Assembly: GCF_018417475.1 (NCBI RefSeq)
Contig: NZ_CP054856.1
Coordinates: 496,001-560,000, forward strand
Source of the DNA: Novosphingobium decolorationis
GTDB taxonomy: Bacteria > Pseudomonadota > Alphaproteobacteria > Sphingomonadales > Sphingomonadaceae
DNA length: 64,000 nucleotides
Direction of reading: 5' to 3'
The notes under the pieces were generated by a model. The model saw only the letters and a program-made list of their open reading frames with translations. It ran no database searches and was not told where the DNA came from. Shown here one piece after another: positions 2,755 to 48,965 of this stretch (positions within the stretch are counted from its first letter, which is position 1; each line of letters starts with the position of its first letter). A program made the position numbers and the translations under genes.

Positions 2755-3468
2755 CTAGCGCCCGAGCAGCCCGACCCCGATGGCGCGCATCAAGGCGCCA
2801 GGCGAACGGGCCGCCTCTTCGCTGCCCTTGGCATGACGCCGGGCCGAAAGGACCTCGAGAACCTTGAGTGGGCGCAGCGCGCGCGGCACACGTCCACGCG
2901 TCGTCGCCCCGTTGTTGGCCAGGAGCCGCTCGACCGCGGCGCGCTCTTCTTCCTTGCTCAGGCGGACCGCAAGATCGGTCAGCGCCCAGGCGCGGCCGAT
3001 GGCTTCGGCCTGCCCGGCGGCTGCCGCGCAGCCGACCTCCTGGGCGAAGGCACCGAAAGCCCGCGCGCGACCGTCCGCCATGGATTGCAGAGCCCCGTGC
3101 GTCAGCGGCGCGGGCGCGGTCAGCGCTTCCCAGCCATCGACGAGCGCCACCGCGCCGTGATGTCCGCCCGTCCAGCTGCGAAAGGCCGCCAACAAGGGCT
3201 CGCCCTGCGGCCAGGCCGACGCATCCTGCCCCAGCGTCTCACGCCACCACGAGAGCCGCAATTGCGCCAGCATGGGCTCGGAGGAGTGGCGCAGCAGGTT
3301 GGCAAGTCGCGCGTCGAGTGCGAAGAGCGCGAGCGTCTGCTGGCGGGTGCGTTGCGGCGCATAGGACAGCGCAAGACGGGCAAGCGGGGAAAGCGAGGCA
3401 AGCAGGCTTTCCTCGATCTGCGCGGAGCTCAGCGGAGCGGGTCCGGCGGCGGATTCTTGTTCAGACAC
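2755..3468 (-). CDS. squalene/phytoene-synthase-fold protein, NDUFAF6-like
   Basis: The protein is 237 residues from a GTG at 3468; a longer 279-residue frame from an ATG at 3594 is possible, but its extra N-terminus looks unconserved and has no ribosome site. The recognisable part is ALDARLANLLR...MLAQLRLSWWRETL (about 50-79), typical of the trans-isoprenyl synthase fold. The paired Asp-rich DxxxD motifs that bind substrate diphosphate in true squalene/phytoene synthases are not visible: the first is reduced to FALDARLA and the second region reads WALTDLAVRLS. That pattern fits the non-catalytic branch that includes the mitochondrial complex I assembly factor NDUFAF6. A role in complex I assembly is inference only. 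Confidence 0.65.
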   Translation of the reverse strand: MSEQESAAGPAPLSSAQIEESLLASLSPLARLALSYAPQRTRQQTLALFALDARLANLLRHSSEPMLAQLRLSWWRETLGQDASAWPQGEPLLAAFRSWTGGHHGAVALVDGWEALTAPAPLTHGALQSMADGRARAFGAFAQEVGCAAAAGQAEAIGRAWALTDLAVRLSKEEERAAVERLLANNGATTRGRVPRALRPLKVLEVLSARRHAKGSEEAARSPGALMRAIGVGLLGR

Positions 3469-33306: not shown

Positions 33307-36066
33307 TCAGAACTTGTAGGTGAACCCGGCGAGGAACCGGCGTCCATAGCTCTGGTAATCGATCACCTGGCGCGCATCGCCGGGATTGGCGGTGATGAAG
33401 GGCTCGTCGGTCAGGTTCTGCCCCTGGAGGTAGAGCGAGAGCCCCTCCAGCGCGCTGCCCGGCTGGAATTCGTAGCCCAGCTGCCCGTCGACGATGAACT
33501 CCGAGGCCGCACGGCGCCGCACGCGCGCCGCACCGAAGCCGGAAACTTCGCCCACGAAGGTCGATCGATAGCGCACCGATCCGCGCGCGCTGAAGCCTGC
33601 CTTCTCGAAGTAGGCCGTGCCGTTGGCCACCCACTTGGAATAGCCCGGCAGGTCCTCCGAAGCGCCGCCCGGCACTGGCGAGATCTTCGTTTTGGTATAG
33701 GCAACAGAACCCGTCACACCGAAGCCTTCCAGCGCCTCGACGAAGGTTTCGAAGGGAAGTGTCGTCGCCACTTCCACGCCGTAGAGCTTGCCGCCCTCCC
33801 CGTTCACCGGAACATTGAGCTGGGCATACGGCGCAATCGTGATGCCATCGCCCGGGCTCGGCAGCGCCAGCGCCGAGGTGGGCACTGTCACGTCTAGATT
33901 GTAGACGTAGCTCTTGAGATCCTTCCAGTAGAACTGCGCGGCGATGTAGCCCTTGCTCGCGAAGTACTTCTCGAAGGTGAGGTCGATGGCGTTGGCGCGC
34001 CAGGGGCGAAGATCGGGGTTGCCCGAAGAGCCGGTCACCTGCGCCACGTCACCCGTGACGGTGTAGCCCCAGCTGAGCGAGGCGCGCATATCGTCGAGGC
34101 GCGGGCGGATGATCTCGCGCGCGGCGGCAAAGCGGATCACGAAATCGCTCGGGAAACGCAGCGAGAGGTTGAGGCTGGGGAGCACATCAAGGTAGTCGGT
34201 GCTCTCGTTACGCTCCGAAGCGCCGATGTCGGGCGAACCATTGGCGTTGGTTCCCAGGTACACCGCCGTCGCCCCCTTCGAGTTCTGGTCGACCCAGTTG
34301 GCCTGCACCCCCACGTTGCCGGTCAGATGCGCCGAGCCGATCTCCGCATCGATGTTCGCCTGGGTATAGGCGGTCATGATCTTCTCGCGGATCGCGTAGG
34401 CCTTGACCACCACGTCGCCGTAGGGGTTGGCGACAAGGTTGTAGAGACCGGCATCGACCAGCGCGACCGGATCGTAGCTGACCATCGAGCCCAGCCCCAG
34501 ATAGTCGAGATCGGTCGCGCCCAGGCGCGCGTCCTCGGGGATCGGGACCGAGACCGTGCCATCGGTGTTGGCGGCAAGGCCCAGGAAATACTCCTCGGGC
34601 ACCAGCCGCTTGGAGCGGGTGGTGTAGTTGAGCCCGGCCTGCACCGAACGCAGGGGCCCGCGATCAATCTCCTTGGCGACTTCGAGGCGCAGCTGCCACA
34701 GCTCGTCCCGGATCTTGCGGTCGTTGTAGTAGCCGTCCTGCCCGCCGGTGATGGTCGTCCCGTCCGGCCCGATCTGCGTGCCGCCCCAGCCTTGCGGGCT
34801 GGTCAGCTGGATCAGATCGTAGTCGGCATAGTCGAGCAGGTGGGTAAACACCGTCCCGCCCGAGGAACTGGAAAAGCCGATGGTGTCGGTCGCGCCCTCA
34901 CCCGCACGGCCCGTGCCCGAGTAGGTTTCGACCACGAGTTCGTTGCGGTCGGTGCGCGAGTAGCTGACGTCGGCAACGGCGTTCCAGCCATCGTCGCCCT
35001 TCCAGGTGTTGTTCCACCCGAACGAGTAGAGCTTGGCGTGGCGCTGGAACGCGTCGTTACGCAGCACTCCCTTCACATCGTCGAAGGCCCCTTGCGTGAT
35101 GAGACCGTCCGAGGCGCTGTAGTCGTCCTGGAGCGAAGCCCCCGACCAGAACAGCGGCAGCTCGATCCCGCGCTTGAACTGGTCGTCCTTGAAGTCGGAA
35201 TAGAACGCATCGAGTGTCGAGGTGAAGTTGGGAGACGGGCGCCATTGCAGCGTGCCGTTGAGCCCGAGGCGCTTGAGCTTGGTCGAGGTGACATAGGACT
35301 TCGAGCCCCCGATCACGCGGTTGCCGTCCGGCCCATCGGCGTAGCCCCAGGCGTTGAATTCCTCGACCTGATAGGGCTCATCCAGATAGCTGGCGCCAAG
35401 AGCGATGCCTAGGGTGTCGTTCGCAAACTGGTCGACATAGAGCGCGTTCATGCGAAACCCGGTGTCCGAGGACCCTGCGTTGAGTTTGCCCTGATCGGTG
35501 TAGGTCCCGCGCGCGCCGACGCTGACGATGCGCTTGGTACCATCGAGCGGGCGGACCGTGCGCATGTCGACCGTGCCGGAGAGGCCCTGGCCGATGAGGC
35601 TGGCCATCGGTGTCTTGTAGACATTGACCGCGTTGACGATCTCGGACGGGTACTGGTCATACTCGACCGCGCGGTTGTCGCCGGTCGAGGTCTGTTCGCG
35701 CCCGTTGAGAAGCGTGGTCGAGAAGTCCGGCGCAAAGCCGCGAATGGAGATTGCGTTCGAGCGCCCGTTGACGCGCTGCGAGGTCAGGCCCGGCAGGCGC
35801 GCGATCGATTCCGCGATGGAAGCGTCGGGCAGCTTGCCGATGTCCTCGGCCGATATCGATTCCACGATCTGCTCGGCCTCGCGCTTCTCGCCCACCGCGC
35901 TGGCCAGGCTGGCGCGGTAGCCGGTGACGATGATCGCGCCTTCCTCGGTGAGCGGCTCGGCGGCCTCCTGCGCCAGCGCCGTGCCGGGCATGACGGCCAG
36001 CATCGCGGCGACCAGTGCGCCCCGTGAAATCGCGACCTTGCTCGCAGTATACGTACGAAAATGCAT
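33307..36066 (-). CDS. TonB-dependent receptor of the starch/maltodextrin locus
   Basis: A 919-residue receptor with a signal peptide ending in PGTALAQEAAE and a TonB-box-like EGAIIVTGYRASLASAVGEK. The plug motifs are SISAEDIGKLPDASIAESIA, RLPGLTSQRVNGRSNAISIR, GFAPDFSTTLLNGREQTS and IVNAVNVYKTPMASLIGQG, all typical of the sugar-linked receptor subgroup found in Caulobacter and sphingomonads. The barrel ends RRFLAGFTYKF with the expected aromatic C-terminus. It heads the minus-strand run of two GH13 and one GH97 enzymes, divergent from a LacI regulator, so maltodextrins are the probable substrate. Confidence 0.92.
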   Translation of the reverse strand: MHFRTYTASKVAISRGALVAAMLAVMPGTALAQEAAEPLTEEGAIIVTGYRASLASAVGEKREAEQIVESISAEDIGKLPDASIAESIARLPGLTSQRVNGRSNAISIRGFAPDFSTTLLNGREQTSTGDNRAVEYDQYPSEIVNAVNVYKTPMASLIGQGLSGTVDMRTVRPLDGTKRIVSVGARGTYTDQGKLNAGSSDTGFRMNALYVDQFANDTLGIALGASYLDEPYQVEEFNAWGYADGPDGNRVIGGSKSYVTSTKLKRLGLNGTLQWRPSPNFTSTLDAFYSDFKDDQFKRGIELPLFWSGASLQDDYSASDGLITQGAFDDVKGVLRNDAFQRHAKLYSFGWNNTWKGDDGWNAVADVSYSRTDRNELVVETYSGTGRAGEGATDTIGFSSSSGGTVFTHLLDYADYDLIQLTSPQGWGGTQIGPDGTTITGGQDGYYNDRKIRDELWQLRLEVAKEIDRGPLRSVQAGLNYTTRSKRLVPEEYFLGLAANTDGTVSVPIPEDARLGATDLDYLGLGSMVSYDPVALVDAGLYNLVANPYGDVVVKAYAIREKIMTAYTQANIDAEIGSAHLTGNVGVQANWVDQNSKGATAVYLGTNANGSPDIGASERNESTDYLDVLPSLNLSLRFPSDFVIRFAAAREIIRPRLDDMRASLSWGYTVTGDVAQVTGSSGNPDLRPWRANAIDLTFEKYFASKGYIAAQFYWKDLKSYVYNLDVTVPTSALALPSPGDGITIAPYAQLNVPVNGEGGKLYGVEVATTLPFETFVEALEGFGVTGSVAYTKTKISPVPGGASEDLPGYSKWVANGTAYFEKAGFSARGSVRYRSTFVGEVSGFGAARVRRRAASEFIVDGQLGYEFQPGSALEGLSLYLQGQNLTDEPFITANPGDARQVIDYQSYGRRFLAGFTYKF
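36047..36056. promoter_or_regulatory. GTATACGTAC motif at the start of the receptor gene
   Basis: GTATACGTAC lies inside codons 4-7 of the receptor gene. Nine of its bases (TACGTATAC on the reverse strand) are shared with the palindrome at 36209-36220 in front of the LacI gene, so it could be an auxiliary operator. Confidence 0.35.
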
Positions 36067-36207
36067 TCCCTGTTACCTCCCAATACCGCGTGACGGTTCT
36101 GAAGACCGATTGCGGCGTCCGCTCCCAAGGGCGAGTGCGCTTCGAAGACGGCGCGACTCATTTCCTGCCTTCGGCATAGACGCGGGATTGGTTACGCATA
36201 ATATGGC

Positions 36208-36220
36208 ATACGTATACGTA
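36208..36220. promoter_or_regulatory. candidate LacI-family operator between receptor and regulator genes
   Basis: TACGTATACGTA (36209-36220) is a perfect 12-base palindrome in the 293-base gap between the divergent receptor and lacI-type genes, and ATACGTAT overlaps it. LacI-family repressors bind such even palindromes with a central CG or TA. Its position between the two genes suits control of both. Confidence 0.5.
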
Positions 36221-36359
36221 GAGCGAACGGGGCCTCGCGCCGTGGCACCCGGGCAACATACGCAAAACTGCGTGATCGCCCGGAAATCCGCGCCACAAGG
36301 CCCAACCGAACGCCGCGATTGTGCGCAGCATGAGAGCGCCAGGGGAGAGGGAGAACTAC

Positions 36360-37397
36360 ATGGGGCGCAAGCCTTCCAACCGGCCGACGAGCTTTGACAT
36401 CGCCTATAGGGCGGGCGTCTCGCAGCCGACCGTCAGCCGGGCGCTCCGCGGCAGCCCATCGATCAGCGAAGCGACCCGAAAGCGCATCGAAACCATCGCA
36501 CGCGAACTCAACTACTCGGTCGACAAGAATGCTTCCTCGCTGCGCTCGAAACGGACCAACACCATCGCGCTGCTCTTCTTCGAGGAAGACACCCCGGGCG
36601 ATTCCAAGATCAACCCCTTCTTTCTCGCCATGCTCGGCGCGATCACGCGGCACAGCGCCAAGCGCGGGCTCGACCTGCTCATCTCCTTCCAGCGCATGGA
36701 GGACGACTGGCACGTGCGCTATCTCGACAGCCACCGCGCCGACGGGCTGATCCTGCTGGGTTATGGCGACTACACACTCTACCGCAGCCGCCTGCGCGAC
36801 CTGGTCGAGCATGGCACGCATTTCGTGCGGTGGGGGGCGGTCGACGATCCGGCCTTTGGCGCCGCGATCGGTTCGGACAACGTGCAGGCGGGCCGAATGG
36901 CAGGCGAGCACCTGCTGGACCAGGGGCATCGCCGCATCGCCTTCCTCGGTCAGGCAGATGAGCACTACCCCGAGTTCGCAGACCGCTATGGCGGACTGTG
37001 CGAGGCGCTCGATGCGGCCGGTATCGCGCCCGACGAGGCCCTCCGGCGCGACACGATCAGCCACGAAGACCTTGGCCGCGCGGCCATGCAGGACATCCTT
37101 GATGCGGGCACCCGGTTCGACGCGGTCTTTGCGGCCAGCGACCTCATTGCGCTGGGCGCCATGGCGGCCTTGCGCTCTGCGGGAAAGCGCATCCCCGAGG
37201 ACGTGGCCGTGATCGGCTTCGACGATCTGCCCGCCGCCGCCATGGCCTCACCCGGCCTCACCACCATCGCCCAGGACATGCGCGCGGCAGGCGAGCGGCT
37301 GATCGATGCCCTGCTCGCCCGGATCGAGGAGCGCGCGCCGCCCTCCCCGCTGATCGGCACACGGCTTATCGTTCGTGAAAGCACGATGCCCGGTTAG
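36360..37397 (+). CDS. LacI-family transcriptional regulator of the starch locus
   Basis: A 345-residue regulator from ATG 36360 after GGGGAGAGGGAG. The helix-turn-helix is TSFDIAYRAGVSQPTVSRAL, followed by the hinge ATRKRIETIARELNYSVDKN. The periplasmic-binding-protein-like sensor runs from about residue 60 with FDAVFAASDLIALGAMAALR and VIGFDDLPAAAM near its end. It is divergent from the maltodextrin receptor and upstream of an MFS sugar transporter, so it probably represses both and is relieved by a maltose-type sugar. Candidate operators share the core TACGTATAC. Confidence 0.92.
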   Translation: MGRKPSNRPTSFDIAYRAGVSQPTVSRALRGSPSISEATRKRIETIARELNYSVDKNASSLRSKRTNTIALLFFEEDTPGDSKINPFFLAMLGAITRHSAKRGLDLLISFQRMEDDWHVRYLDSHRADGLILLGYGDYTLYRSRLRDLVEHGTHFVRWGAVDDPAFGAAIGSDNVQAGRMAGEHLLDQGHRRIAFLGQADEHYPEFADRYGGLCEALDAAGIAPDEALRRDTISHEDLGRAAMQDILDAGTRFDAVFAASDLIALGAMAALRSAGKRIPEDVAVIGFDDLPAAAMASPGLTTIAQDMRAAGERLIDALLARIEERAPPSPLIGTRLIVRESTMPG

Positions 37398-37427
37398 CTT
37401 CGAAACGGACCCAGAAGTGGGCCGCGT

Positions 37428-37440
37428 ATTCGTATGCGTG
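37428..37440. promoter_or_regulatory. ATTCGTATGCGTG motif in front of the MFS gene
   Basis: This 13-base element matches the candidate operator ATACGTATACGTA at 36208-36220 in ten positions, and lies about 90 bases before the MFS transporter start, within the gap following the lacI-type gene. It may be a second operator for the same regulator. Confidence 0.3.
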
Positions 37441-37530
37441 ATTGCCGCAGACCCCGGCTCGTGCAAAGGCCATGGGCCTGAAGCGCACGGTGGCAGACCA
37501 TCGGCAGACAAGATGGGAAAGGACGGCCGG

Positions 37531-39084
37531 ATGGCTACAGGCAGCGAGGCCGAATTGCCCGGAGAGGCCACCGCACTCTCGGAAAAACCCCGGCAGGGCT
37601 GGCTGGGCCTGTGCAACATCAGCGTCGGTTTCTTCGGCATTCAGGTCGGTTTCGCGCTGCAGAACGCGAACATGAGCCGGGTCTTCCAATCGCTGGGTTC
37701 GTCCATCGATGACCTGCCCGCACTCTGGGTGGCCGCGCCGCTGACGGGCCTCCTCGTCCAGCCCGTCATCGGCCACCTTTCGGACCGCACCTGGCTCGGC
37801 AGGCTCGGGCGGCGGCGGCCCTATTTCCTGGCAGGCGCACTTCTGGCAGCCGCCTCGCTGCTGGCTATGCCCGGCAGCACGAGCCTCCTGATGGCGGCCC
37901 TCCTGCTCTGGACACTGGATGCCAGTCTCAATGTCTCGATGGAGCCGTTTCGGGCTTTTGTCGGCGACATGCTGCGCCGCGACCAGCATACCGCGGGTTA
38001 CGGAGTGCAGACCGCCTTCATCGGCGCAGGCGCGGTCGTGGGCTCGCTCTTCCCCTACCTCCTCGAGCATCTGGGCGTTGCGAATGTCGCCGCAGACGGC
38101 GCGATCCCCGAGACGGTGCGGATCAGCTTCCAGGCCGGCGCGGCCCTGCTCGTCATCGCCGTGCTGTGGACCGTCCTGTCCACCCGCGAATATGCACCCG
38201 AGGACATGCGCGCCTTTGCGGGTAGCGGAGACAATGTCACGCAGTCCGCAACGCTGGACGCACTGGCAACTCGCAAATCCACGACCGGCCTCGCCTGGAT
38301 CGGCCTTGGCGCCGCGCTGGCTCTCGCCGTCTGGCACTGGAGCCTCGAAAAGGAAGTCTACCTCCTCGCCGCGCTGCTTGCCGCCTATGGCCTCGCGGTA
38401 AACCTTGCGGCCCGGCGCGCACGGCAGGGCAAGGAAAGCTCGATGCTTACAGGGATCGTGGGTGACTTTGCCGGAATGCCGCCCCTGATGAAGCGCCTGG
38501 CCCTTGTCCAGTTCTTCAGCTGGTCGGCGCTCTTCATCATGTGGATCCACACGACACCGGTTGTGGCGAGCACCCATTTCGGCGCCGCCTCGCCGCTCGA
38601 TCCGGCCTATCAGGAGGCGGGCAACTGGGTCGGCGTGCTCTTCGCGGTTTACAACGGCGTGGCGGCCTTTGCCGCTCTGCTGCTGCTCCCGCTCCTGTCC
38701 AGCCGGCTGGGCAAGGTGCGCACCCACGCGCTGTGCCTGCTCGCAGGCGCGCTGGGCTTTGCAGGCTTCCTCGTGGTGCGCGATCCCACCTGGCTGATCG
38801 CCTGCGAGATCGGCATCGGTATTGCCTGGGCCTCGATCCTCGCGATGCCTTACGCCATCCTCGCCAGCCACCTGCCGCAAGCCAAGCTCGGCGTCTACAT
38901 GGGTCTCTTCAACGTCTTCGTGGTCCTGCCCCAACTGCTCGTCGCGACGGTCATGGGGACGGTGATGAAGGCCTTCTTCCCCCAGGCGCCGATCTGGACG
39001 ATGGCCTTTGCTGCGGGAACGCTGGCTCTCGCCGCGCTACTTGCGCTTCGCGTCGATCCCGACCAGGGCCGCGCGGCGTCCTAG
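37531..39084 (+). CDS. MFS transporter, sugar:cation symporter type
   Basis: A 517-residue protein with about twelve membrane helices, from ATG 37531 after GGAAAGGA; longer in-frame starts lack a ribosome site. It has the loop signature GHLSDRTWLGRLGRRRPYFL between helices 2 and 3, characteristic of the SLC45/SUT-like sugar transporters. GFFGIQVGFALQNANMSRVF in the first helix is also typical of these bacterial maltose/sucrose carriers. It most likely brings maltose-type sugars across the inner membrane for the cytoplasmic GH13 glucosidase. Its stop codon overlaps the stop of the opposing GntR gene by four bases. Confidence 0.88.
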   Translation: MATGSEAELPGEATALSEKPRQGWLGLCNISVGFFGIQVGFALQNANMSRVFQSLGSSIDDLPALWVAAPLTGLLVQPVIGHLSDRTWLGRLGRRRPYFLAGALLAAASLLAMPGSTSLLMAALLLWTLDASLNVSMEPFRAFVGDMLRRDQHTAGYGVQTAFIGAGAVVGSLFPYLLEHLGVANVAADGAIPETVRISFQAGAALLVIAVLWTVLSTREYAPEDMRAFAGSGDNVTQSATLDALATRKSTTGLAWIGLGAALALAVWHWSLEKEVYLLAALLAAYGLAVNLAARRARQGKESSMLTGIVGDFAGMPPLMKRLALVQFFSWSALFIMWIHTTPVVASTHFGAASPLDPAYQEAGNWVGVLFAVYNGVAAFAALLLLPLLSSRLGKVRTHALCLLAGALGFAGFLVVRDPTWLIACEIGIGIAWASILAMPYAILASHLPQAKLGVYMGLFNVFVVLPQLLVATVMGTVMKAFFPQAPIWTMAFAAGTLALAALLALRVDPDQGRAAS

Positions 39085-39758
39085 TCCATGTCCTCGGCGC
39101 ACGGCGCGCCGCGTGTCGCGGCCTCGTTCGCGCGCAAGCGATAGGCATGGGCGGCGCGGCGGATATGGTTGCGCGCAATGGCGCCCGCCCAGGCGACATC
39201 GTGGGCGGTGAAGGCCGCAATCAGGTCGCGGTGGTCACGCTGGCTCTGTTCAAGGTCCGAGACAGTGTAGCGTTCGGCCGTGCGGTGGATGATCACCTGG
39301 TTGACGATGATCCGCATCATCTGGTTCAGCGGCTCGGAGCGCGCCGCCGCCAGCAAGGTCGCGTGGAAACGCCGGTTGCCTTCGACGAAGCCCGGGATGT
39401 CAGCCTCCCCGCCCAGCGCCGCATCGATGAAGTCGGCGTGAGTGCGCAGCTCCGCGATCTCGTCAGGCGTGATCAGTTCGGCCGCGCGCTCGGCGCAGTG
39501 CGCCTCGAGCTTGGCGCGCAGGGTGAAGAGTTCTTCCACCTCGCCATCGGACCACAGCGGCACGAACACCCGCCGCGTGCCGGAGCGCTGCAGCAGCGTT
39601 TCGGAGACAAGCCGCGCAATCGCCTCGCGCACAGGCGTGCGCGAGGTGCCGCAGTAGCTCGCGAATTCGTCCTCGGGCACGAACATGCCCGGCTCGAAAT
39701 CGCCCGCCAGAATACCTGCACGGATCTGGCGATATACCTGCTCTGATGTCTTGGCCAT
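39081..39758 (-). CDS. GntR-family regulator with FCD domain
   Basis: A 225-residue protein from ATG 39758, six bases after GGGAG; a TTG two codons upstream is less likely. The winged-helix domain is EQVYRQIRAGILAGDFEPGM followed by CGTSRTPVREAIARLVSE, the classic GntR recognition helix. The FCD ligand domain follows with EELFTLRAKLEAHCAERAAE, RRFHATLLAAARSEPLNQMM and a metal-site His in SQRDHRDLIAAF. Such regulators usually respond to small organic acids. It lies 120 bases downstream of the TonB receptor on the same strand and probably controls the divergent catabolic operon. Ligand unknown. Confidence 0.9.
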   Translation of the reverse strand: MAKTSEQVYRQIRAGILAGDFEPGMFVPEDEFASYCGTSRTPVREAIARLVSETLLQRSGTRRVFVPLWSDGEVEELFTLRAKLEAHCAERAAELITPDEIAELRTHADFIDAALGGEADIPGFVEGNRRFHATLLAAARSEPLNQMMRIIVNQVIIHRTAERYTVSDLEQSQRDHRDLIAAFTAHDVAWAGAIARNHIRRAAHAYRLRANEAATRGAPCAEDMD

Positions 39759-39878
39759 GTTCAACTCCCGGAGCGTGCGCCCGGCATTCCAATGGGTAAA
39801 CAGTCAGGCTCCCTAGCGCCGGGTGGGTGGGCAGCGCAACGCGCAAAGTGCGCGCGCCGCCCGCCCAACCGCGCCCTG

Positions 39879-42335
39879 TCAGAAGCTGAAGCCCGCTTCC
39901 ACGCCGATCTGGCGCAGCGCGCCCGGCGTCAGGAACGCACCGCCGAACTCGGGCGCAGGGATCACCTCTTCCAGGTAGCGCTTCTTGAAGAAGTTGTTGA
40001 CGAAGCCTGTCAGGTGCCAGCCTTCGCCCTTCAGCCCGGCCCGCAGGTTCACGATGCCATAGGCATCGCGCCGGGTCTGCGAATAGTCCGCCGTGCCTAG
40101 CCCGGGGTAGAACACGTCGAAGATCGTGCGGCGCTGCTGGTCCTGCACGACATGGAACCAGGTCGGCCCGGTCAGGAGGTAGTCTGCAAGGAAGGTGAAA
40201 TCGACGCGGTCGCTGACCGGCTGGATCACCGAGGCCCCGACGTTCAGCGTATAGTCGGCCGAATAGGGCGACTTGTTCCCTTCGGTATTGGGCCGCACCG
40301 AGTTGGTGATGATCTTGCTGTCGAGGACGTTGCCGCCTGCATCGAGCGTGAAGCCCGGAGCGACCTTCCAGACCACGCCCAGTTCCGCCCCCATCAGGCG
40401 CACCTTGTCGATGTTGGAGACGACGCGCAGGATCCCGAAGGTGCCGGTGTAGAACTCGAAGAACTGCATGTCCTCGACGATGTTGCGATAGACAGCGCCG
40501 TTGATCTGCACATCGCCGTTGGCCAGGCCGATCTTGAAGCCCGCCTCCAGTGCGTGGCTGACCTCCTTCTTGTAATCATCGTCAATGGCGAGGTTCGAGC
40601 CCAGGAGGTCGTTGTAATAGGTGTCGATCAGCGCGGCGCTGCCCTGGCTGTTGAAGCCGCCCGCCTTGAAGCCCACGCCATAGTCCAGATAGACATTGAT
40701 GTCGGGCGTGAACTCGTAGCGCAAGGTGACCTTGGGCTGGAGCTGCTCGTAGGCCCGTTTCTGGAATTCCAGCGTGCCCACCTCATAGCCCGGATTGATC
40801 GAGGCCCCGGTGATGGGATCGAGGACATCGGGCACGAGCGGAGTGACGGTGCGCTCCTCGCGGTCGAAACGCAGCGCACCCGACAAGGTGAGCGCCCGCG
40901 TCGGGCTCCATTCCAGTGATCCAAAGCCAGCATAGACATTGGTCTTGAAGCGGTCGTTGAAGAGCTGCGAGGTCTGGTTGGGTGTGCCGGGCGCATTGTA
41001 GAGGTTGGAATTGACCGGCCCGCCGTCATCCTCGTTGAGCGCGGTCGCATAGTGGCGGTTGATGTGGAGGTAGTAGGCCCCGACCGACCATTGCAGCGGC
41101 CCGCCCGTGTCCGAAGCAAGCCGGATTTCCGCGCTGATGTCGCGCTGGTCGCGCAAGGTCACCTGAATACCGTCGCAGGCGGTCGGGCTATAGGCCCCAA
41201 GCGTCGAGCCACCGGGCGTCGGCGCCAGATAGAGCGGCGGGGCGAGCACCACACCCGCATCGTAAAGCGCCGCAGTCGAGGCGATGCACGCGTCCTGGCC
41301 GTTGAAGCGCCCAAACGAGGCGGCGGTCGTGTCGGCATAGAACGTCTCGTCGATGTCCGAGAAGGACACCCAGGTCGTCAGCTTCGCTCCATCGAAGGCG
41401 TAGTCCGCCTTGAGCGAGGCCTCGATCGTGCGCAGGGTGTCGATCGAGGGGACGTTGCGCTGCCACTCGAAACGCGCGGTGTTCACGTCCTGGTAGTATT
41501 CCGGGATGCCCAGCGCGCTGGCAAAGTCGGGCATCTCGAAAGCCGCGTTGTAGTTGAGCGCCGCGGCCTCGATTTTGTTGTAGCGAAACTTGACATCAAG
41601 GCTCAGCCGGTCCGTCGGCTCGGAAACGAGGCGTCCGCCCAGCCCCCAGCCTTCGTACTGGTCGATGGTCTTGCCGCGCGTGCGCGGATCGGGTCCGGTG
41701 TTGGTATAGAAGCCGTCGGTCGCCCGGTACTGGCCGAAGAGGACAAAACCGGTGTTGCCCCCCAGCGGACCCGAGATCGAACCTTCCAGAAGCTTGCTGT
41801 CCTGCGTGGCCCAATAGGCACGCCCTTCGGCCTCGAGACGGTCCGAGGGCTTCTTCGTTGTCATCACGATCACGCCCGCGGTTGCGCCGCGTCCGTAGTA
41901 GGCGCCCTGCGGTCCCTTGAGGATCTCGAACTGCTGGAGCGCGCCCTGGTACTGGTTGACCGCCGCCGTGTTGGTCTTGAGAATGCCGTCAACCACCAGC
42001 GCGACGTTGTTCTCCGCATCACGCGCGCCGTTGACGCCGCGGATATTGATCTGCGCATCGCCGACCTGCGCGGCGTTGGAGACGATCGTAACGCCCGGCG
42101 TTGCCGCAATCGCCTGCTCGGTCGTCACGATTCCCTTGGCTTCCAGGTCCGCGCCGGTCAGCACCGTGACCGAGGCGGGCACGTCGCTCAGGCTCTCGTT
42201 CTGGCGGCGCGCGGTAACGGTGATCTGATTGCCGGTCAGTTCCGCTCCCGAAGAGGTGGACTGCGCCGCGACCGGGTTGGCGCCCACAACGCCAAGCGCG
42301 ACACCTGCGAGAAGAATTACCTTCTTGTGCTGCAT
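39879..42335 (-). CDS. TonB-dependent receptor linked to the hyuAB/CoA-transferase module
   Basis: An 818-residue receptor with signal peptide MQHKKVILLAGVALGVVGAN and a likely TonB box in GNQITVTARRQNESLSDVPA. The plug motifs are SLSDVPASVTVLTGADLEAK, TPGVTIVSNAAQVGDAQINI, RGVNGARDAENNVALVVDGI and QQFEILKGPQGAYYGRGATA, matching the large group of sphingomonad receptors for non-sugar substrates. The barrel ends in LRQIGVEAGFSF. It is divergent from the HMG-CoA-lyase-like gene across a 363-base control region, so it probably imports the substrate that operon degrades. Confidence 0.92.
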   Translation of the reverse strand: MQHKKVILLAGVALGVVGANPVAAQSTSSGAELTGNQITVTARRQNESLSDVPASVTVLTGADLEAKGIVTTEQAIAATPGVTIVSNAAQVGDAQINIRGVNGARDAENNVALVVDGILKTNTAAVNQYQGALQQFEILKGPQGAYYGRGATAGVIVMTTKKPSDRLEAEGRAYWATQDSKLLEGSISGPLGGNTGFVLFGQYRATDGFYTNTGPDPRTRGKTIDQYEGWGLGGRLVSEPTDRLSLDVKFRYNKIEAAALNYNAAFEMPDFASALGIPEYYQDVNTARFEWQRNVPSIDTLRTIEASLKADYAFDGAKLTTWVSFSDIDETFYADTTAASFGRFNGQDACIASTAALYDAGVVLAPPLYLAPTPGGSTLGAYSPTACDGIQVTLRDQRDISAEIRLASDTGGPLQWSVGAYYLHINRHYATALNEDDGGPVNSNLYNAPGTPNQTSQLFNDRFKTNVYAGFGSLEWSPTRALTLSGALRFDREERTVTPLVPDVLDPITGASINPGYEVGTLEFQKRAYEQLQPKVTLRYEFTPDINVYLDYGVGFKAGGFNSQGSAALIDTYYNDLLGSNLAIDDDYKKEVSHALEAGFKIGLANGDVQINGAVYRNIVEDMQFFEFYTGTFGILRVVSNIDKVRLMGAELGVVWKVAPGFTLDAGGNVLDSKIITNSVRPNTEGNKSPYSADYTLNVGASVIQPVSDRVDFTFLADYLLTGPTWFHVVQDQQRRTIFDVFYPGLGTADYSQTRRDAYGIVNLRAGLKGEGWHLTGFVNNFFKKRYLEEVIPAPEFGGAFLTPGALRQIGVEAGFSF

Positions 42336-42698
42336 CTGATGATTTCCCCTGAACCTCGAATTGTCTTACTTTGCAAACATTTCATCGAGCGCCCGGCCGG
42401 TTTCGGCTCTTGGCGGCATCAAGGTGACTGCGATTTACATATTTGTACACAAAAATATTCAAGCATCATTCGCCAAACATCGCACCTAGCCCTAATGACG
42501 CAAGTTACAGCAAGGTAATGCGCGAGACAGGCACTGGCATCTGGACCGCGAAATCCATTTCGTGTACAGTTTTGGAAACACCTCCAGCGGAAGGCACGGA
42601 AGGCAGCCACCAGCCTTCGCCCGCCCCACCCACCGCTCCGCACATGCAATGCGCTCCAGGCCCTCCCCGGTCCTGAGCCAAGGAAAGGCCCGAACCGC
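42336..42698. other. divergent control region of the receptor and catabolic operon
   Basis: This 363-base gap is more AT-rich near 42430-42480 than its surroundings and contains two TGTACA-centred elements (42442-42453 and 42573-42578). No gene is supportable here. It must carry the promoters of both the receptor and the HMG-CoA-lyase-like operon. Confidence 0.55.
42442..42453. promoter_or_regulatory. candidate GntR-type operator
   Basis: TTTGT (42442-42446) and ACAAA (42449-42453) form an inverted repeat with a two-base spacer, TTTGTACACAAA. GntR/FadR-subfamily regulators bind short palindromes of the form GT-N-AC, so this fits the GntR/FCD gene at 39081-39758. A related TGTACA element is at 42573-42578. 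Confidence 0.5.
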
Positions 42699-43622
42699 GT
42701 GACGGTAAAGTCGATCGAATTCATGGAAGTAGGCCCGCGCGACGGCCTGCAGAACGAAAAGACATTGATCTCGACCCAGGACAAGCTCGAACTGGTGCGC
42801 CGCGCCATCGACGCCGGTGCCCGCCGCATCGAGGTGACCAGCTTCGTGAACCCGCGCCGCGTGCCCCAGATGGCCGATGCGGCCGAGGTCTGCGCGGGAC
42901 TGCCCGAGGTCGAAGGCGTTCTCTACACAGGCCTCGTCATGAACGCGAAGGGCGGCGAGCGCGCCATCGCCACGGGACGCATCCACGAACTCGGTGCCGT
43001 CTGCGTCGCCTCGGACCGCTTCGCCATCGCCAACCAGGGCCAGACCAGCCTCGAATCGGTCGACGCCGCCAAGGGCCTCATCGCCATGGCCCAGGATGCA
43101 GGCCTGCGCGGCCAGGCCACCATCGGCGCGGCCTTCGGCTGCCCCTTCGAAGGTGAGATCGCCGAGGAACACGTCGTCGAAATGGCCCGCAAGCTGGCAG
43201 AGGCCAACCCGGTCGAGATCGCGCTGGCCGACACCATCGGCGTCGCCGATCCGGCCCACGTCTCCCGCCTCGTGCGCGCCGTCAGCGAAGCGATCGGCTC
43301 TACCCCTGTGCGCGTCCATTTCCACAACACCCGCGGCACCGGCATCGCCAATGTCTGGGCGGCGGTGGAAGCGGGCGCACGCGTCGTCGATGCCGCCCTC
43401 GGCGGCCTTGGCGGCTGCCCCTTCGCCCCCGGCGCGGCCGGCAATGTCGCCAGCGAGGACGTGGTCTACATGCTCCACCGCGCAGGCGTTGCGACCGGCA
43501 TGGATCTTGGCAAGCTTGTCGAGGCAAACCAGTGGCTTGCCACGGTCATGGAGCGCACCCTGCCGTCCATGGTCGCCCGCGCACCCGCCTTTCCCAAGCC
43601 AGTCGAAACCGCCGAGGCCTGA
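42699..43622 (+). CDS. hydroxymethylglutaryl-CoA lyase-like enzyme
   Basis: A 307-residue protein of the HMG-CoA lyase family, GTG start at 42699 after AAGGAAAGG. The metal site motif is EVGPRDGLQNE (about residues 10-20), the second metal motif is VHFHNTRGTGIAN, and the family signature GGLGGCPFAPGAAGN carries the active-site Cys240. These enzymes split a 3-hydroxy-3-methylglutaryl-CoA-type substrate into acetyl-CoA and a keto acid by retro-aldol chemistry. It is the first gene of a run with hydantoinase A/B and a CoA-transferase, so its natural substrate may differ from HMG-CoA. Leucine-degradation partners are not nearby. Confidence 0.9.
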   Translation: MTVKSIEFMEVGPRDGLQNEKTLISTQDKLELVRRAIDAGARRIEVTSFVNPRRVPQMADAAEVCAGLPEVEGVLYTGLVMNAKGGERAIATGRIHELGAVCVASDRFAIANQGQTSLESVDAAKGLIAMAQDAGLRGQATIGAAFGCPFEGEIAEEHVVEMARKLAEANPVEIALADTIGVADPAHVSRLVRAVSEAIGSTPVRVHFHNTRGTGIANVWAAVEAGARVVDAALGGLGGCPFAPGAAGNVASEDVVYMLHRAGVATGMDLGKLVEANQWLATVMERTLPSMVARAPAFPKPVETAEA

Positions 43623-43758
43623 GCGTGGCGGCGGCGCCAACTTATCCGATAGGCGGGACCAGCCTCCGCCTGGCGGATGTTTGTGCGCCAGTCGTTTTCA
43701 TATTCCTCCGACATGCGGCCTATTCGCTGGCGCATAGTCTTCGAACAAGGTGAAACAC

Positions 43759-45807
43759 ATGACCTATCGTTTGGGTGTCGACGTTGGCGGCACCTTCACC
43801 GACCTTTTGCTGTTCAACCAGGAAGACGGCTCGTTTTTCCGTCACAAGACGCCGTCGACGCCGCATGACAGTTCGGAAGGTATTCTGAACGGGCTCGGCG
43901 CGATCTGCGAGAAGGCGGGGATCACGCCGGCGGATATCGAGTTCTTCCTGCACGGCACCACCGTCGCCACCAACGCCGTGCTTGAAGGCAAGGGCGCGCG
44001 CGTGGGCCTCATCACGTCCGAAGGCTACCGCCAGGTCATGCAGATCGCGCGCTCGTTCGTGCCGGGCGGTCTGGCGGGTTGGATCGTGTGGCCCAAGCCC
44101 GTGCCGCTCGCCGCTCTGGAAGACACTTTCGAGGTTGCCGGGCGCATGAACGCGCAGGGCGAGGAAGTGCGCGCGATCGACGAAGCCCAGATCCGCGACG
44201 TGCTGACCAGGCTCAAGGCCTCGGGCGTCCAAGCGCTCACCGTTTCGCTCATGAACGGCTACTTGAACGGCGCGCACGAGAGCCGCATCGGCGAACTCGC
44301 CGCCGAGATCTGCCCCGAGCTTCCGGTCTCGCTCTCCCACGAAGTCCTGCCCGAGATGCAGGAATACGAGCGCACGCTGACCACCGTCGCCAACGCCGCG
44401 GTGCGGCCCGTGGTGGGCAACTACGTGCGTAACCTGCGCTCGAACCTGCGTTCGGGCGGCATGGCGGGCTCGCTCTCGCTGCTGCGCTCGGACGGTGGTC
44501 TCATGTCCTCGGAGAAGTCCGAAGAGCACCCCGTCGCGCTCCTCATGTCGGGTCCGGCAGGCGGCGTCACCGGCGCGCTGTGGGTCGGCAAGAACGCTGG
44601 CATCAAGAACATCCTGACGCTGGACGTGGGCGGCACCTCGACCGACGTCGCGCTCATCGAAAACCTCGAGGCACGCCGCGTGCGCACCACCGAAGTGGGC
44701 CACCTCTCGGTGCGCGCTTCGGCTCTGGATGTGAAGACCGTGGGTGCGGGCGGCGGCTCGATCGCCTATGTCCCCGAGCTCACCGGCGCGCTGCGCGTCG
44801 GACCGGAATCGGCCGGCGCCGTCCCGGGCCCGGTGGCCTACAACAAGGGCGGCACGCTGCCGACCGTGACCGACGCCAACGTGGTCCTGGGCTACCTCCC
44901 CGAGAACCTTCTGGGCGGGACCTTCAAGCTCGACCGGGAAGGCGCCAAGGCGGCTGTCCAGACCGTCGCCGACAAGCTCGGCATCGATGTCATGGAGGCC
45001 GCGCGCGGCATCATCGACATCGTCAACGAGAACATGTTCGGCGCGCTGCGCATGATCTCGGTCCAGCAGGGCTACGATCCGCGTCACTTCGCGGTCATGG
45101 GCTTTGGCGGGGCGGGTCCGCTCCACGTCAACGCCGTCGCCAAGCTGATGGGCTCCTGGCCCGCCGTCTCGCCGGTGTCCCCGGGCGTCCTGTGCGCGCT
45201 GGGCGATGCGACCACGCGCATGCGCACCGAGACCGCGCGTTCGTACTCCAAGTCGTTCTCCAGCACCGAGGAAGCCGACGTTCTCGCCCAGCTCGAAGAG
45301 ATGGCCGCGCAGACCACGAAGGAACTCACCAGCGAGGGCATCGACGCCAGCGACGTCACCGTCGAGTTCGAACTCGACGTGCGCTACGAGGGCCAGGCCT
45401 TCGAAGTGCCGCTCTCCATCGATCCCGAGACCTTCAAGTCGGGTGGCCTTGCCGCGATCATCGCGCGCTTCGATGATGAGCACGAGCGCCTCTTCACCTT
45501 CAAGATGGATAGCGAGCACGAACTCGTGAACCTGCGCGCCGTGGCGCTCGGCCCCGTCCTCGACCTCGAAGCCCAGCGCCTTCCCGAAGGCAACGGCGAT
45601 CCCATCGAGGCCAAGGTGCGCGACCACCAGCTGTGGGCCGATGGCAAGATGGTCCCTGCCGTGATCTACGACCGTTCCAAGCTCAAGGCGAACGACGTGA
45701 TCCAGGGCCCGGCCATCGTCACCGAGATGGACTCCACCACGCTCATCGAAGCCGACTGCACCGGCACCGTCGATGCCTTTGGCAACATCCTCATCAACCT
45801 GAAGTGA
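43759..45807 (+). CDS. hydantoinase/oxoprolinase family protein, subunit A (HyuA-like)
   Basis: A 682-residue protein from ATG 43759 after AAGGTG; an in-frame ATG three codons upstream is less well placed. It has the ATPase-fold N-terminus YRLGVDVGGTFTDLLLFNQE and a second phosphate-binding motif LTLDVGGTSTDVALIENL, as in HyuA, acetone carboxylase and acetophenone carboxylase large subunits. The family uses ATP to open cyclic amides or to carboxylate ketones. It lies 16 bases before the matching B subunit. No biotin or acetone-carboxylase gamma subunit is present, which leans toward amide-ring opening but does not settle it. Confidence 0.9.
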   Translation: MTYRLGVDVGGTFTDLLLFNQEDGSFFRHKTPSTPHDSSEGILNGLGAICEKAGITPADIEFFLHGTTVATNAVLEGKGARVGLITSEGYRQVMQIARSFVPGGLAGWIVWPKPVPLAALEDTFEVAGRMNAQGEEVRAIDEAQIRDVLTRLKASGVQALTVSLMNGYLNGAHESRIGELAAEICPELPVSLSHEVLPEMQEYERTLTTVANAAVRPVVGNYVRNLRSNLRSGGMAGSLSLLRSDGGLMSSEKSEEHPVALLMSGPAGGVTGALWVGKNAGIKNILTLDVGGTSTDVALIENLEARRVRTTEVGHLSVRASALDVKTVGAGGGSIAYVPELTGALRVGPESAGAVPGPVAYNKGGTLPTVTDANVVLGYLPENLLGGTFKLDREGAKAAVQTVADKLGIDVMEAARGIIDIVNENMFGALRMISVQQGYDPRHFAVMGFGGAGPLHVNAVAKLMGSWPAVSPVSPGVLCALGDATTRMRTETARSYSKSFSSTEEADVLAQLEEMAAQTTKELTSEGIDASDVTVEFELDVRYEGQAFEVPLSIDPETFKSGGLAAIIARFDDEHERLFTFKMDSEHELVNLRAVALGPVLDLEAQRLPEGNGDPIEAKVRDHQLWADGKMVPAVIYDRSKLKANDVIQGPAIVTEMDSTTLIEADCTGTVDAFGNILINLK

Positions 45808-45823
45808 GCGAAGGAACTCTCTA

Positions 45824-47704
45824 ATGCCCGCACAGATCATTCAGGCCAACGAAACCCCCTTCGAGAAGATCGAGATCGATCCGGTCACCCTCGAAGTCAT
45901 CGAGAACGCCCTTCGCAACGCCCGCATCGAGATGGACGCGACCCTCGTGCGCACCGCCATGTCGCCGGGCATCCGCGAACAGGGTGACGCCTTCCCGCTC
46001 ATCGCCGACCACAAGGGACGCATGATCGTGGGCCAGTTCGGCTCCTACATCGGCCCCTTCCTCGAAGGCTATGAAGGCACCGTGGAAGACGGCGACATGA
46101 TCTTCCTGTCCGACCCCTACTCGGTCGGCGGCGCGATCAGCCACTGCAACGACTGGCTCGTCCTGCTCCCCGTCTTCAAGGACGGCCGCCTCATCGCCTA
46201 CACCTCGATGTTCGGCCACCAGAGCGACATCGGCGGCATGGTGCCGGGCTCCATGCCGATCCACGCCACCGAGATCTTCCAGGAAGGCGTGCGCATCCCG
46301 CCCGTCAAGATCTGGAAGAAGGGTGAGTACAACGAGGACCTCATCAAGCTGGTCATGCACCAGTCGCGCATGCCCGACTGGTGCAAGGCGGACCTGAACG
46401 CGCTGATCGCCTCGTGCCGTGTTGCCGCCAACCGCGTGGTCGAGATGGCCGAGCGCTTCGGCGATGACATCTTCGTCTCGGCGACCAACCTGCTCCTGGA
46501 TCGCAACTACCGCGCCATGCAGCAGCTCATCGAGAGCTCGATCGGCGAGACGCCCGTCTCGTTCGAGGACTACATCTGCGACGATGGCATGGGTTTTGGC
46601 CCCTACAAGATCAAGTGCACGATGTGGAAGGAGAACGGCCGCGTCGTTCTCGACTTCGACGGCACCGATCCGCAGTCGCAGGCCTCGATCAACATGCTGC
46701 TCAATGAGAACATGATGCGCATGTTCTTCGGCATCTACATGATCATGGTCTTCGATCCGCAGATCCTGTTCAACGACGGCTACTACCCGCTGATCGACAT
46801 CCGGATCCCGGAAGGCTCGCTGCTCAAGCCCAGGTTCCCGGCCGCGCTCTCGGGCCGTACCCACGTGCTCGGACGCCTGTTCGACATCATGGGCGGCCTG
46901 CTGGGCCAGAAGACCCCTGAGTTCCTCAACGCCGCGGGCTTCTCCTCCTCGCCGCACCTGTTCTATGCAGGCCACGACAAGGCGGGCAAGTGGTTCCAGC
47001 TCTTCCAGATCGGCTTTGGCGGCATCCCGGGTCGTCCGATGGGCGACGGACCCGACGGCCACTCGCTGTTCCCCGGCTTCACCAACGTGCCCAACGAGTT
47101 CCTCGAGCGCTACTTCCCGCTCGAGATCGTCAAGTACGAGACGGTCGCCGACAGCGGCGGTGCGGGTCTGCACCGCGGCGGCAACGGCATCAACATGGTC
47201 TACCGCTTCTATGAGCCGGGCGTCATCGCGATCCACGACGACCGCTGGTTCGTGCCGCCCTGGGGCGTCAACGGCGGTCTTCCGGGCAAGCGCGCCAAGA
47301 AAATCCTGACCAAGGCCGACGGCACCCAGATCGTGGTCGGCAACAAGCTGGAAGACTACCCCGTCGAAGCGGGCGATGAACTCCAGTTCATCACCTGGGG
47401 CGGCGGTGGCTGGGGCGACCCGCTCGAGCGCGACCCGGCCCTCGTCCTCAAGGAAATCGGCCAGGGCCTCGTCACCGAGACCGGCGCCCTCGACTACGGC
47501 GTCGTCATCAAGGACGGCGCGGTCGACGAGACGGCCACCCAGGCCCTGCGCGAAAAGATGCGCACCGAGCGCGGCGAGGTCGAGGTCTTCAACTTCGGCC
47601 CCGACATCGAAACCTTGCGCAAGAACTGCCTCGAAGAAACCGGCCTCCCCGCTCCCAAGCAGCCCATGTGGCGGCATGCGGACATCGCGGAGGCAGCGGA
47701 GTAA
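45824..47704 (+). CDS. hydantoinase B/oxoprolinase family protein (HyuB-like)
   Basis: A 626-residue protein of the HyuB family. Typical blocks are DPVTLEVIENALRNARIEMD at the N-terminus, GDMIFLSDPYSVGGAISHCN and HQSDIGGMVPGSMPIHATEI in the middle, and GGAGLHRGGNGINMVYRFYE with VITWGGGGWGDPLERDP-like residues toward the C-terminus. It forms a complex with HyuA and carries the hydrolytic or carboxylating centre. It follows HyuA by 16 bases and precedes the CoA-transferase by three, so these are clearly one unit. Substrate unknown. Confidence 0.9.
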   Translation: MPAQIIQANETPFEKIEIDPVTLEVIENALRNARIEMDATLVRTAMSPGIREQGDAFPLIADHKGRMIVGQFGSYIGPFLEGYEGTVEDGDMIFLSDPYSVGGAISHCNDWLVLLPVFKDGRLIAYTSMFGHQSDIGGMVPGSMPIHATEIFQEGVRIPPVKIWKKGEYNEDLIKLVMHQSRMPDWCKADLNALIASCRVAANRVVEMAERFGDDIFVSATNLLLDRNYRAMQQLIESSIGETPVSFEDYICDDGMGFGPYKIKCTMWKENGRVVLDFDGTDPQSQASINMLLNENMMRMFFGIYMIMVFDPQILFNDGYYPLIDIRIPEGSLLKPRFPAALSGRTHVLGRLFDIMGGLLGQKTPEFLNAAGFSSSPHLFYAGHDKAGKWFQLFQIGFGGIPGRPMGDGPDGHSLFPGFTNVPNEFLERYFPLEIVKYETVADSGGAGLHRGGNGINMVYRFYEPGVIAIHDDRWFVPPWGVNGGLPGKRAKKILTKADGTQIVVGNKLEDYPVEAGDELQFITWGGGGWGDPLERDPALVLKEIGQGLVTETGALDYGVVIKDGAVDETATQALREKMRTERGEVEVFNFGPDIETLRKNCLEETGLPAPKQPMWRHADIAEAAE

Positions 47705-47707
47705 ACC

Positions 47708-48898
47708 ATGGAAAATACAGGAGCCCTCAAGGGACTTCGCGTCGTGGAAATGGGCCAGCTTCTGGCTGGCCCGTTCGCCGGACAGCTTCTGGGCGACATG
47801 GGCGCCGACATCATCAAGGTGGAGCCGCCCGGCAAGGGCGACCCGCTGCGTGTCTGGGGCCAGGGCGAGAAGAAGGTCAGCTGGGAAGTGGTCGCGCGCA
47901 ACAAGCGTGCGGTCTCGGCCAACATGCGCGTGCCCGAAGGCCAGAAGCTGGTGCGCGAGCTCATCCGCCACGCCGACATCGTGATCGAGAACTTCCGCCC
48001 CGGCACGATGGAGAAGTGGGGCCTTGATCCCAGGCAGCTGCTCGAAGAGCAGCCCAGCCTCATCATCTCGCGCATGTCGGGCTACGGCCAGACCGGCCCC
48101 TACTCCTCGCGCGCCGGCTTTGGCGGCATCGGCGAGGCCATGGGTGGCTGGCGCTACATCGTGGGCGAACCTGACCGTGCGCCGAGCCGCATGGGCGTCT
48201 CGATTGGCGACACCCTCACCGCCACCTACGGCGTCATGGGCATCCTCGCCGCGCTCCACGTGCGCGACACCACCGGCAAGGGCCAGATCATCGACGCGGC
48301 GCTCTACGAAAGCGTGCTGCAGATCACCGAGAGCCTGGTTTCAGAATACGACAGCTCGGGCTTCATCCGCGAGCGCACTGGCTCGATCCTGCCGGGCATC
48401 GCGCCCTCCAACGTCTATTATTGCAGCGACGGCGAATACATGATCGGGGCCAACGCCGATCCCTTGTGGAAGCGCCTGTCGGCCGCCATGGGCAAGCCGG
48501 AACTGGGTGATGATCCGCGCTATGCCACCCACATCGCACGCGGGCAGAACCAGACCGAACTCGACGAGATGATCAACGCCTGGACCAAGGGCTACACCAT
48601 CGAGGAGATGGACGCGCTGATGAGCGAGTACGGCATTCCCGCCGGCCGCGTCTACCGCGCGCCCGAGATGCTCGCCGACCCGCACTTCCAGGCCCGCGAG
48701 GCCATCGTCGAAGTCGAGACCGAAACCCACGGCAAGCTCAAGATGCAGAACGCCTTCCCCAAGCTGTCGGCCACGCCCAGCTGCATTCGTCGTCCGGCAC
48801 CCTCGCGCGTTGGCCAGCACAACGCGGAGATCTATGGCGAACTGCTGGGTCTCGATGCCGAGGCGCTCGCCAGGATGGAAGCCGATGGGATCGTCTGA
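47708..48898 (+). CDS. CaiB/BaiF family III CoA-transferase
   Basis: A 396-residue protein. The family opening LKGLRVVEMGQLLAGPFAGQ is followed by LLGDMGADIIKVEPPGKGDP, the CoA-binding signature. GQTGPYSSRAGFGGIGEAMG and GKGQIIDAALYESVLQITES mark the middle; the usual nucleophile in this region is Asp, and here the aligned residue may be the Glu of ALYES. The enzyme would move CoA from a donor such as succinyl-CoA onto an organic acid. It is the last gene of the operon and is followed by a strong terminator. Family III members include transferases for glutarate and 3-hydroxy-3-methylglutarate. Confidence 0.92.
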   Translation: MENTGALKGLRVVEMGQLLAGPFAGQLLGDMGADIIKVEPPGKGDPLRVWGQGEKKVSWEVVARNKRAVSANMRVPEGQKLVRELIRHADIVIENFRPGTMEKWGLDPRQLLEEQPSLIISRMSGYGQTGPYSSRAGFGGIGEAMGGWRYIVGEPDRAPSRMGVSIGDTLTATYGVMGILAALHVRDTTGKGQIIDAALYESVLQITESLVSEYDSSGFIRERTGSILPGIAPSNVYYCSDGEYMIGANADPLWKRLSAAMGKPELGDDPRYATHIARGQNQTELDEMINAWTKGYTIEEMDALMSEYGIPAGRVYRAPEMLADPHFQAREAIVEVETETHGKLKMQNAFPKLSATPSCIRRPAPSRVGQHNAEIYGELLGLDAEALARMEADGIV

Positions 48899-48924
48899 TC
48901 CTCAAGGCTTTTGAGACCACATAC

Positions 48925-48965
48925 GATGGCGCGGCGATCCTGCGATTGCCGCGCCATCTTGTTTT
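48925..48965 (+). terminator. Rho-independent terminator of the HMGL-hyuAB-CoA-transferase operon
   Basis: GATGGCGCGGC (48925-48935) pairs perfectly with GCCGCGCCATC (48948-48958) with a 12-base loop, followed by TTGTTTT. It starts 26 bases after the CoA-transferase stop. Confidence 0.85.

Follow-up and report, generated by a model that had tools for sequence, protein, structure and literature searches.

The window analysed here is a 64,000-nucleotide stretch of the genome of Novosphingobium decolorationis (assembly GCF_018417475.1, contig NZ_CP054856.1, positions 496,001 to 560,000). It contains a six-gene set encoding a GntR/FCD regulator, a TonB-dependent receptor, a lyase of the 3-hydroxy-3-methylglutaryl-CoA (HMG-CoA) lyase family (HMGL), HyuA, HyuB and a CaiB-type family III CoA-transferase. 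Its gene content and conservation, a recurrent palindrome and an exchange of hyuAB between two genomic contexts were established by computation, and comparison with relatives supports the view that the set is a real, conserved catabolic module of sphingomonads. In our reading, to which we give about an even chance, it is a substrate-induced module that breaks down a cyclic amide taken up from outside; the likeliest candidate is a cyclic imide carrying, or leading to, a branched, 3-hydroxylated dicarboxylate.

Relatives were collected by searching GTDB genome contigs once with HyuB, and the best 80 of 118 loci were used; this sample is biased toward close HyuB proteins and includes several near-copies of one another. 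Genes were predicted with a simple codon-usage caller retrained for each locus, and families were counted anywhere in the stretch, at most 10 kb on each side and often less; absences in these counts are soft, since several contigs are short. An earlier note on this DNA had suggested a catabolic module whose genes should stay together in relatives, and they do: HMGL and CaiB of the module families occur beside a close HyuB in 39 of the 80 loci. GntR of the module's cluster is present in 35 of these 39 module loci and the TonB receptor in 33. An isochorismatase-like amidohydrolase is encoded in 26, directly after CaiB in 21, a racemase-like protein in 16 and a SnoaL-like protein in 14. The other 41 loci, among which L077, L084 and L087 (see below) were counted, contain an isocitrate lyase (ICL)/phosphoenolpyruvate (PEP)-mutase-family enzyme (19 loci), aldehyde dehydrogenase (19), amidohydrolase (16), LeuD (10) and HMGL (6).

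A near relative among the 39, L038 of Novosphingobium sp. BW1, shares 91% DNA identity with the window over 19.2 kb. According to the record annotation, the receptor, GntR, HMGL, HyuA, HyuB, CaiB and amidohydrolase genes of N. capsulatum are consecutive, and the HMGL of Novosphingobium aromaticivorans DSM 12444 is a close homologue of the window lyase (79%). A conjugative plasmid in Acidiphilium multivorum JZ-6 carries a divergent version, which comprises GntR, HMGL, CaiB, HyuA, HyuB (57% identical) and isochorismatase, accompanied by a porin and an MFS transporter, with no receptor within the stretch examined. The conserved catabolic module of the earlier note stands, while any substrate or activity is still only predicted. 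It had missed an operator of the GntR type common to the modules, a second context in which HyuAB occurs together with LeuCD or an ICL-family enzyme, and that hyuAB is exchanged between the contexts.

All six genes were found at the coordinates given earlier and are intact, with open frames, as judged from the open reading frame list and Pfam (Table 1); for HyuA, an ATG at 43759 looks a likelier start than position 43750. From a shared intergenic region (42336–42698) the receptor and GntR genes are transcribed leftward and the lyase-HyuA-HyuB-CaiB genes rightward. The gap between the lyase gene and hyuA is 127 nt, and the tight spacing described from hyuA onward is correct, because only 16 nt separate hyuA from hyuB and 3 nt separate hyuB from the CaiB gene. 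The terminator expected at the end of the module was recovered as a terminator-like hairpin. The number of hairpin-type sites in the region is not raised (7 vs. 6 ± 3 in shuffles), and the other six have stems of 5 pairs vs. 15 pairs after CaiB.

Table 1. Genes and predicted regulatory elements of the module (positions within the window).
Feature	Coordinates	Strand	Evidence
GntR/FCD regulator, probably the ligand-sensing regulator of the module	39081..39764	-	Pfam FCD 81.5 bits, GntR 55.1 bits
TonB-dependent outer-membrane receptor, probable substrate importer	39879..42335	-	Pfam plug and barrel
Probable GntR/FCD operator palindrome TTGTACACAA, receptor/lyase intergenic region	42443..42452	.	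matches TTGTNNACAA
Imperfect palindrome TCGTGTACAG, possibly a second site of this type	42560..42569	.	pattern listing, weak; also in L038
HMG-CoA-lyase-family acyl-CoA lyase (proposed alkylmalyl-CoA or citramalyl-CoA type)	42699..43622	+	PF00682 152.7 bits, NF004283 308 bits
HyuA, ATP-dependent hydantoinase/lactamase alpha-type subunit	43750..45807	+	Pfam Hydantoinase_A 287.7 bits
HyuB, predicted metal-binding ring-opening subunit	45824..47704	+	Pfam Hydantoinase_B 474.7 bits
CaiB/family III CoA-transferase	47708..48898	+	PF02515 405.9 bits
Terminator-like hairpin, operon end	48925..48958	+	15-pair stem, 10 G-C, T-rich tail

The palindrome TTGTATACAA was derived from a comparison of the region between the receptor and lyase genes in the window and in six relatives, and either TTGTATACAA or TTGTACACAA is present in all seven. 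The pattern TTGTNNACAA was found 55 times in the 886 kb of 43 module loci, compared with 3 occurrences in the remaining loci (668 kb). These 43 rows, used also for the HyuB tree, are the 39 loci, the window, and three loci added by hand: L077, whose contig stops before CaiB, L084, with CaiB detected by tblastn only, and L087, with CaiB and no HMGL called. The pattern lies in the intergenic region before a module gene in 32 of the 43 and only inside gene starts in four more (L098, L105, L107, and L112), where the starts are probably called too far upstream. Within the window it occurs once, with 0.14 expected, and at least one copy was seen in 13 of 100 shuffles, so that the palindrome is convincing through the comparison and not through the window alone. 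Being derived from relatives, this stricter palindrome was chosen after looking. The FCD consensus TNGTNNNACNA was rejected, as its 5 sites in the window compare with 4.57 expected and none lies within the module. Taken together, TTGTATACAA is probably the GntR operator, to which the regulator encoded in the module would bind.

In the HyuB tree, the proteins of the window and L038 fall with starred support inside the clade of the second, sister context, and their HMGL belong to the module clade. The module label changes five times on this tree, all five changes being forced by starred branches, and HyuAB and HMGL-CaiB have therefore been linked or unlinked several times; the tree was built by a quick method and has long branches at L058, L070, and L108. 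Strain BW1 carries both contexts (L038 and L039) on a single contig, some 125 kb from each other, and they share a 3,935-base block spanning hyuAB that is 99.87% identical, with no other match over 150 bases. Positions 43758 to 47673 of the window match the sister copy of BW1 at 95%. The window hyuAB thus appears to derive from the parallel catabolic context, and, given the tree conflict and these two matches, HyuAB of both contexts are probably interchangeable. In its own genome, the region at 425–465 kb resembles the sister context, with amidohydrolase, LeuCD-HMGL-CaiB and, judged by eye, insertion-sequence-like genes; no hyuAB was called in this region, from which we infer its loss there. 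The genome has three HyuB genes, the other two being 29% and 27% identical to that of the window. One of them, at 3053–3065 kb (L125), is paired with a HyuA gene (HyuB 27% and HyuA 39% identical); CaiB-like, acyl-CoA dehydrogenase-like and CitE-like genes, some assigned by eye, lie close by.

A pathway can be proposed from these families. The TonB receptor would import the cyclic amide, and HyuAB would open its ring using ATP. The isochorismatase-like amidohydrolase, here possibly a distant copy at 432.8 kb, would remove the second C-N bond, and a LeuCD-type hydratase would add a hydroxyl group where the diacid is unsaturated. CaiB could then form the CoA ester of the branched dicarboxylate, and the HMGL-family lyase could split it into acetyl-CoA and a 2-oxo acid. 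GntR would control both divergent transcripts via TTGTATACAA-type operators.

HyuA and HyuB carry their Pfam domains on two adjacent subunits, which places them in the HyuAB superfamily. HyuA/HyuB proteins are common, but to our knowledge substrates are known for few of them. The best NCBIfam model for HyuA is CapA (caprolactamase), with 529 bits vs. a 1000-bit cut-off, and HyuB reaches 209 bits with CapB, likewise below its 1000-bit cut-off. The Asp-His-Asp-His metal ligands of CapB are kept in the alignment as D55, H107, D110, and H132 of HyuB. Of 15 listed CapB pocket residues, one is identical in HyuB, ten differ and four fall in gaps, and in the pairwise alignment the vicinal disulfide Cys410-Cys411 is replaced by Ser-Leu. 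With the equivalog cut-offs missed and neither the disulfide nor the hydrophobic pocket kept, HyuAB of the window does not qualify as caprolactamase proper. The amidohydrolase of L109, which is in line with the proposed pathway, has as its best solved relatives an N-carbamoylsarcosine amidohydrolase and the putative isochorismatase 3ot4/3uao, presumably the maleamate amidohydrolase NicF.

In the CoA-transferase, the Asp of the VSIGD motif falls at the same alignment position as the Asp in family III transferases of solved structure. Four contexts were viewed among 67 plasmid records, for which the query was the Acidiphilium lyase and not that of the window. In N. pentaromativorans US6-1 the CaiB-HMGL pair is accompanied by LeuC-LeuD, on two Methylobacterium plasmids by LeuC-LeuD together with an ICL/PEP-mutase-family enzyme, and on a Comamonadaceae plasmid by an ICL-family enzyme. 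LeuCD-HMGL-CaiB is also encoded at 451–455 kb of the N. decolorationis genome. Since CaiB-HMGL pairs sit elsewhere with LeuCD and/or an ICL-family enzyme, the gene neighbourhoods point to alkylmalate chemistry. For the ICL-family enzyme found in the sister context (L049), the nearest solved chains are 4iqd, petal death protein and 2,3-dimethylmalate lyase. At 1768–1777 kb of the N. decolorationis genome, an additional LeuCD-FAD monooxygenase-ICL-like cluster was noted.

A bolder proposal, to which we give only a small chance, is that the module would be the first pathway recognised for alkylated cyclic imides taken up through a TonB receptor, such as maleimides from tetrapyrrole breakdown. It would proceed by ATP-dependent imide opening, de-amidation, hydration and CoA-dependent cleavage of an alkylmalyl-CoA, and a CoA-free sister route (LeuCD and ICL-family lyase) would share the interchangeable HyuAB.

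Several observations weigh against a pathway for cyclic imides. The module of the window has neither an adjacent amidohydrolase nor an adjacent hydratase, and the best amidohydrolase match in the genome, which shares 41% identity with the enzyme of L109, is encoded some 105 kb from it. Within the stretch examined, LeuC was found in one, LeuD in one and the ICL-family enzyme in two of the 39 module loci. The best curated model for the ICL-family enzyme is methylisocitrate lyase (252.5 bits vs. a cut-off of 354.4). In seven of the 43 module loci (L058, L070, L073, L076, L078, L082, and L090) the palindrome is missing before the module genes. The individual reactions, their order, the substrate class and the binding of GntR to the palindrome are all predictions. 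Finally, the isochorismatase family also hydrolyses N-carbamoyl compounds, and because of this and the racemase-like protein of the module loci a hydantoin fits these partners as well as an imide does.

The use of hydantoins or other cyclic ureides is accordingly the first alternative, possible though rather unlikely. HyuAB would open a 5-substituted hydantoin, together with an isochorismatase-like carbamoylase and a hydantoin racemase, and CaiB and HMGL would process the carbon skeleton afterwards. Among PDB entries HyuB is closest to an N-methylhydantoinase, the N. capsulatum record labels its amidohydrolase as N-carbamoylsarcosine amidohydrolase, and the nearest solved relatives of the racemase-like protein are hydantoin and allantoin racemases. 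However, at the presumed positions of the two catalytic Cys of hydantoin racemases, Thr and Ser are found in all 17 aligned members, which weakens the racemase as a decisive mark of hydantoins; no gene of this family was called in the module of the window, and an amino acid product would leave the CoA-transferase and the lyase without an obvious use. Cyclic imides are favoured, since a C-C cleavage that depends on CoA fits more readily behind a dicarboxylate. The racemase-like gene (e.g., L082:5431-6180, L109) adjoins the palindrome in many loci. In the sister context, L039:3741-4487 and seven family members resemble EutA/arylmalonate decarboxylase and seemingly lack the catalytic Cys residues.

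Ketone carboxylation, the other chemistry offered for HyuAB in the earlier note, is improbable. Here HyuAB would be acetone/acetophenone-carboxylase-like, and CaiB and HMGL would process the keto acid. The enzymes belong to the same superfamily, and HyuA scores 317 bits with ApcC and HyuB 116 bits with ApcD; both fall short of the cut-offs of 1500, and the caprolactamase models are closer. Within the operon, the part of the genome inspected for this, an additional carboxylase subunit gene is not evident. Since so many module loci encode the isochorismatase-like amidohydrolase, HyuAB more likely acts as an amidohydrolase that opens a ring than as a carboxylase; with CapA as the best model, though far under its cut-off, the cyclic amide of the earlier note is favoured and its ketone disfavoured.

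The lyase exceeds the NF004283 cut-off of 246 bits, as expected for a member of the HMG-CoA lyase family, and its motifs GPRDG, HFH and GGCPFAPGAAGN align with human HMGCL. It is not the sole HMGL above this cut-off in the genome, another being encoded at 453 kb (274 bits), and, as stated earlier, no leucine-pathway genes adjoin it. Among 98 genomes, that of N. decolorationis included, 12 have an HMGL match of 429–467 bits, all other listed matches reaching at most 323, and in six of these 12 a lower-scoring HMGL is also encoded no more than 5 kb from HyuB. HMGL is absent at E 1e-40 in 23 of the 98 genomes, 15 of which have a leucine-type carboxylase, presumably methylcrotonyl-CoA carboxylase, an identity only inferred because no curated model confirms it. 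Owing to this separate high-scoring class and to these 15 genomes, the window lyase is probably not the leucine-pathway lyase (LiuE). That it serves leucine catabolism and stands beside HyuAB by chance is very improbable, even though neither HMGL of the genome falls in the high-scoring class, as the leucine-type carboxylase cluster of N. decolorationis at 2001–2009 kb (L135) offers a CitE-like lyase candidate recognised by eye. This cluster, with carboxylase subunits and acyl-CoA dehydrogenase, MaoC-like, CitE-like and SCOT-like genes (mostly assigned by eye) and without HMG-CoA lyase, resembles the (R)-HMG-CoA route of Mycobacterium tuberculosis, in which, as described in PMC6689899, leucine is served by a CitE-like (R)-HMG-CoA lyase. 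At 2592–2600 kb (L126), a 1198-aa HyuA-HyuB fusion is encoded next to a carboxylase, and the beta subunit of this carboxylase shares 76% identity with that of the leucine-type enzyme.

The genes next to the module probably do not belong to it. Positions 33307–39084 encode a TonB receptor, a LacI-type regulator (by eye) and a sucrose-symporter-like MFS protein (below the model cut-off), probably an ordinary sugar-uptake locus. The LacI and MFS genes upstream, like the 2-hydroxyacid dehydrogenase and P-type ATPase genes downstream, were rejected as members since among the loci compared they adjoin the module only in L038. Elsewhere in the genome, NifV-, NifS-, NifU- and FixAB-like genes recognised by eye at 1888–1895 kb (L136) suggest nitrogen fixation genes.

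Together, the conserved receptor, regulator, probable operator, second amidohydrolase and C-C lyase narrow the substrate class and make the proposal directly testable; a random-barcode transposon sequencing (RB-TnSeq) library exists for N. aromaticivorans DSM 12444 (PMC11737130). The enzyme families of the module are all known already, and targeted searches of open-licence papers returned no description of this gene combination or of imide or maleimide degradation by such a cluster.

Among known systems, the ATP-dependent caprolactamase CapAB of Pseudomonas jessenii, the source of the pocket residue list (PMC8453981), shares the two-subunit HyuA/HyuB architecture and the metal ligands; the window proteins are far below its equivalog cut-offs and keep one of its 15 pocket residues. 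The HyuABC(E) hydantoin operons of Pseudomonas sp. NS671 likewise combine HyuA and HyuB with a second C-N hydrolase, as relatives of the module do, sometimes with a racemase-like protein. In the module, however, the second hydrolase is of the isochorismatase type, the racemase-like protein lacks both presumed Cys, and HMGL, CaiB, receptor and GntR are added. The dimethylmaleate hydratase/dimethylmalate lyase pair of nicotinate fermentation has a parallel in the sister context, in which HyuAB is accompanied by LeuCD and/or an ICL-family enzyme with petal death protein and 2,3-dimethylmalate lyase among its solved relatives. Its best solved relative is, however, 4iqd and its best curated model methylisocitrate lyase, under the cut-off; the window module uses CoA chemistry, and its hosts are sphingomonads, which are aerobic, unlike nicotinate fermentation. 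The citramalate enzymes of Chloroflexus are presumably members of family III and the HMGL family. In reaction logic, the proposed CoA transfer to an alkylmalate and its cleavage to acetyl-CoA and a 2-oxo acid resemble the reactions of (R)-citramalate CoA-transferase (EC 2.8.3.20) and (R)-citramalyl-CoA lyase (EC 4.1.3.46) (PMC8307300), the difference being that CaiB-HMGL of the window is coupled to a ring-opening enzyme.

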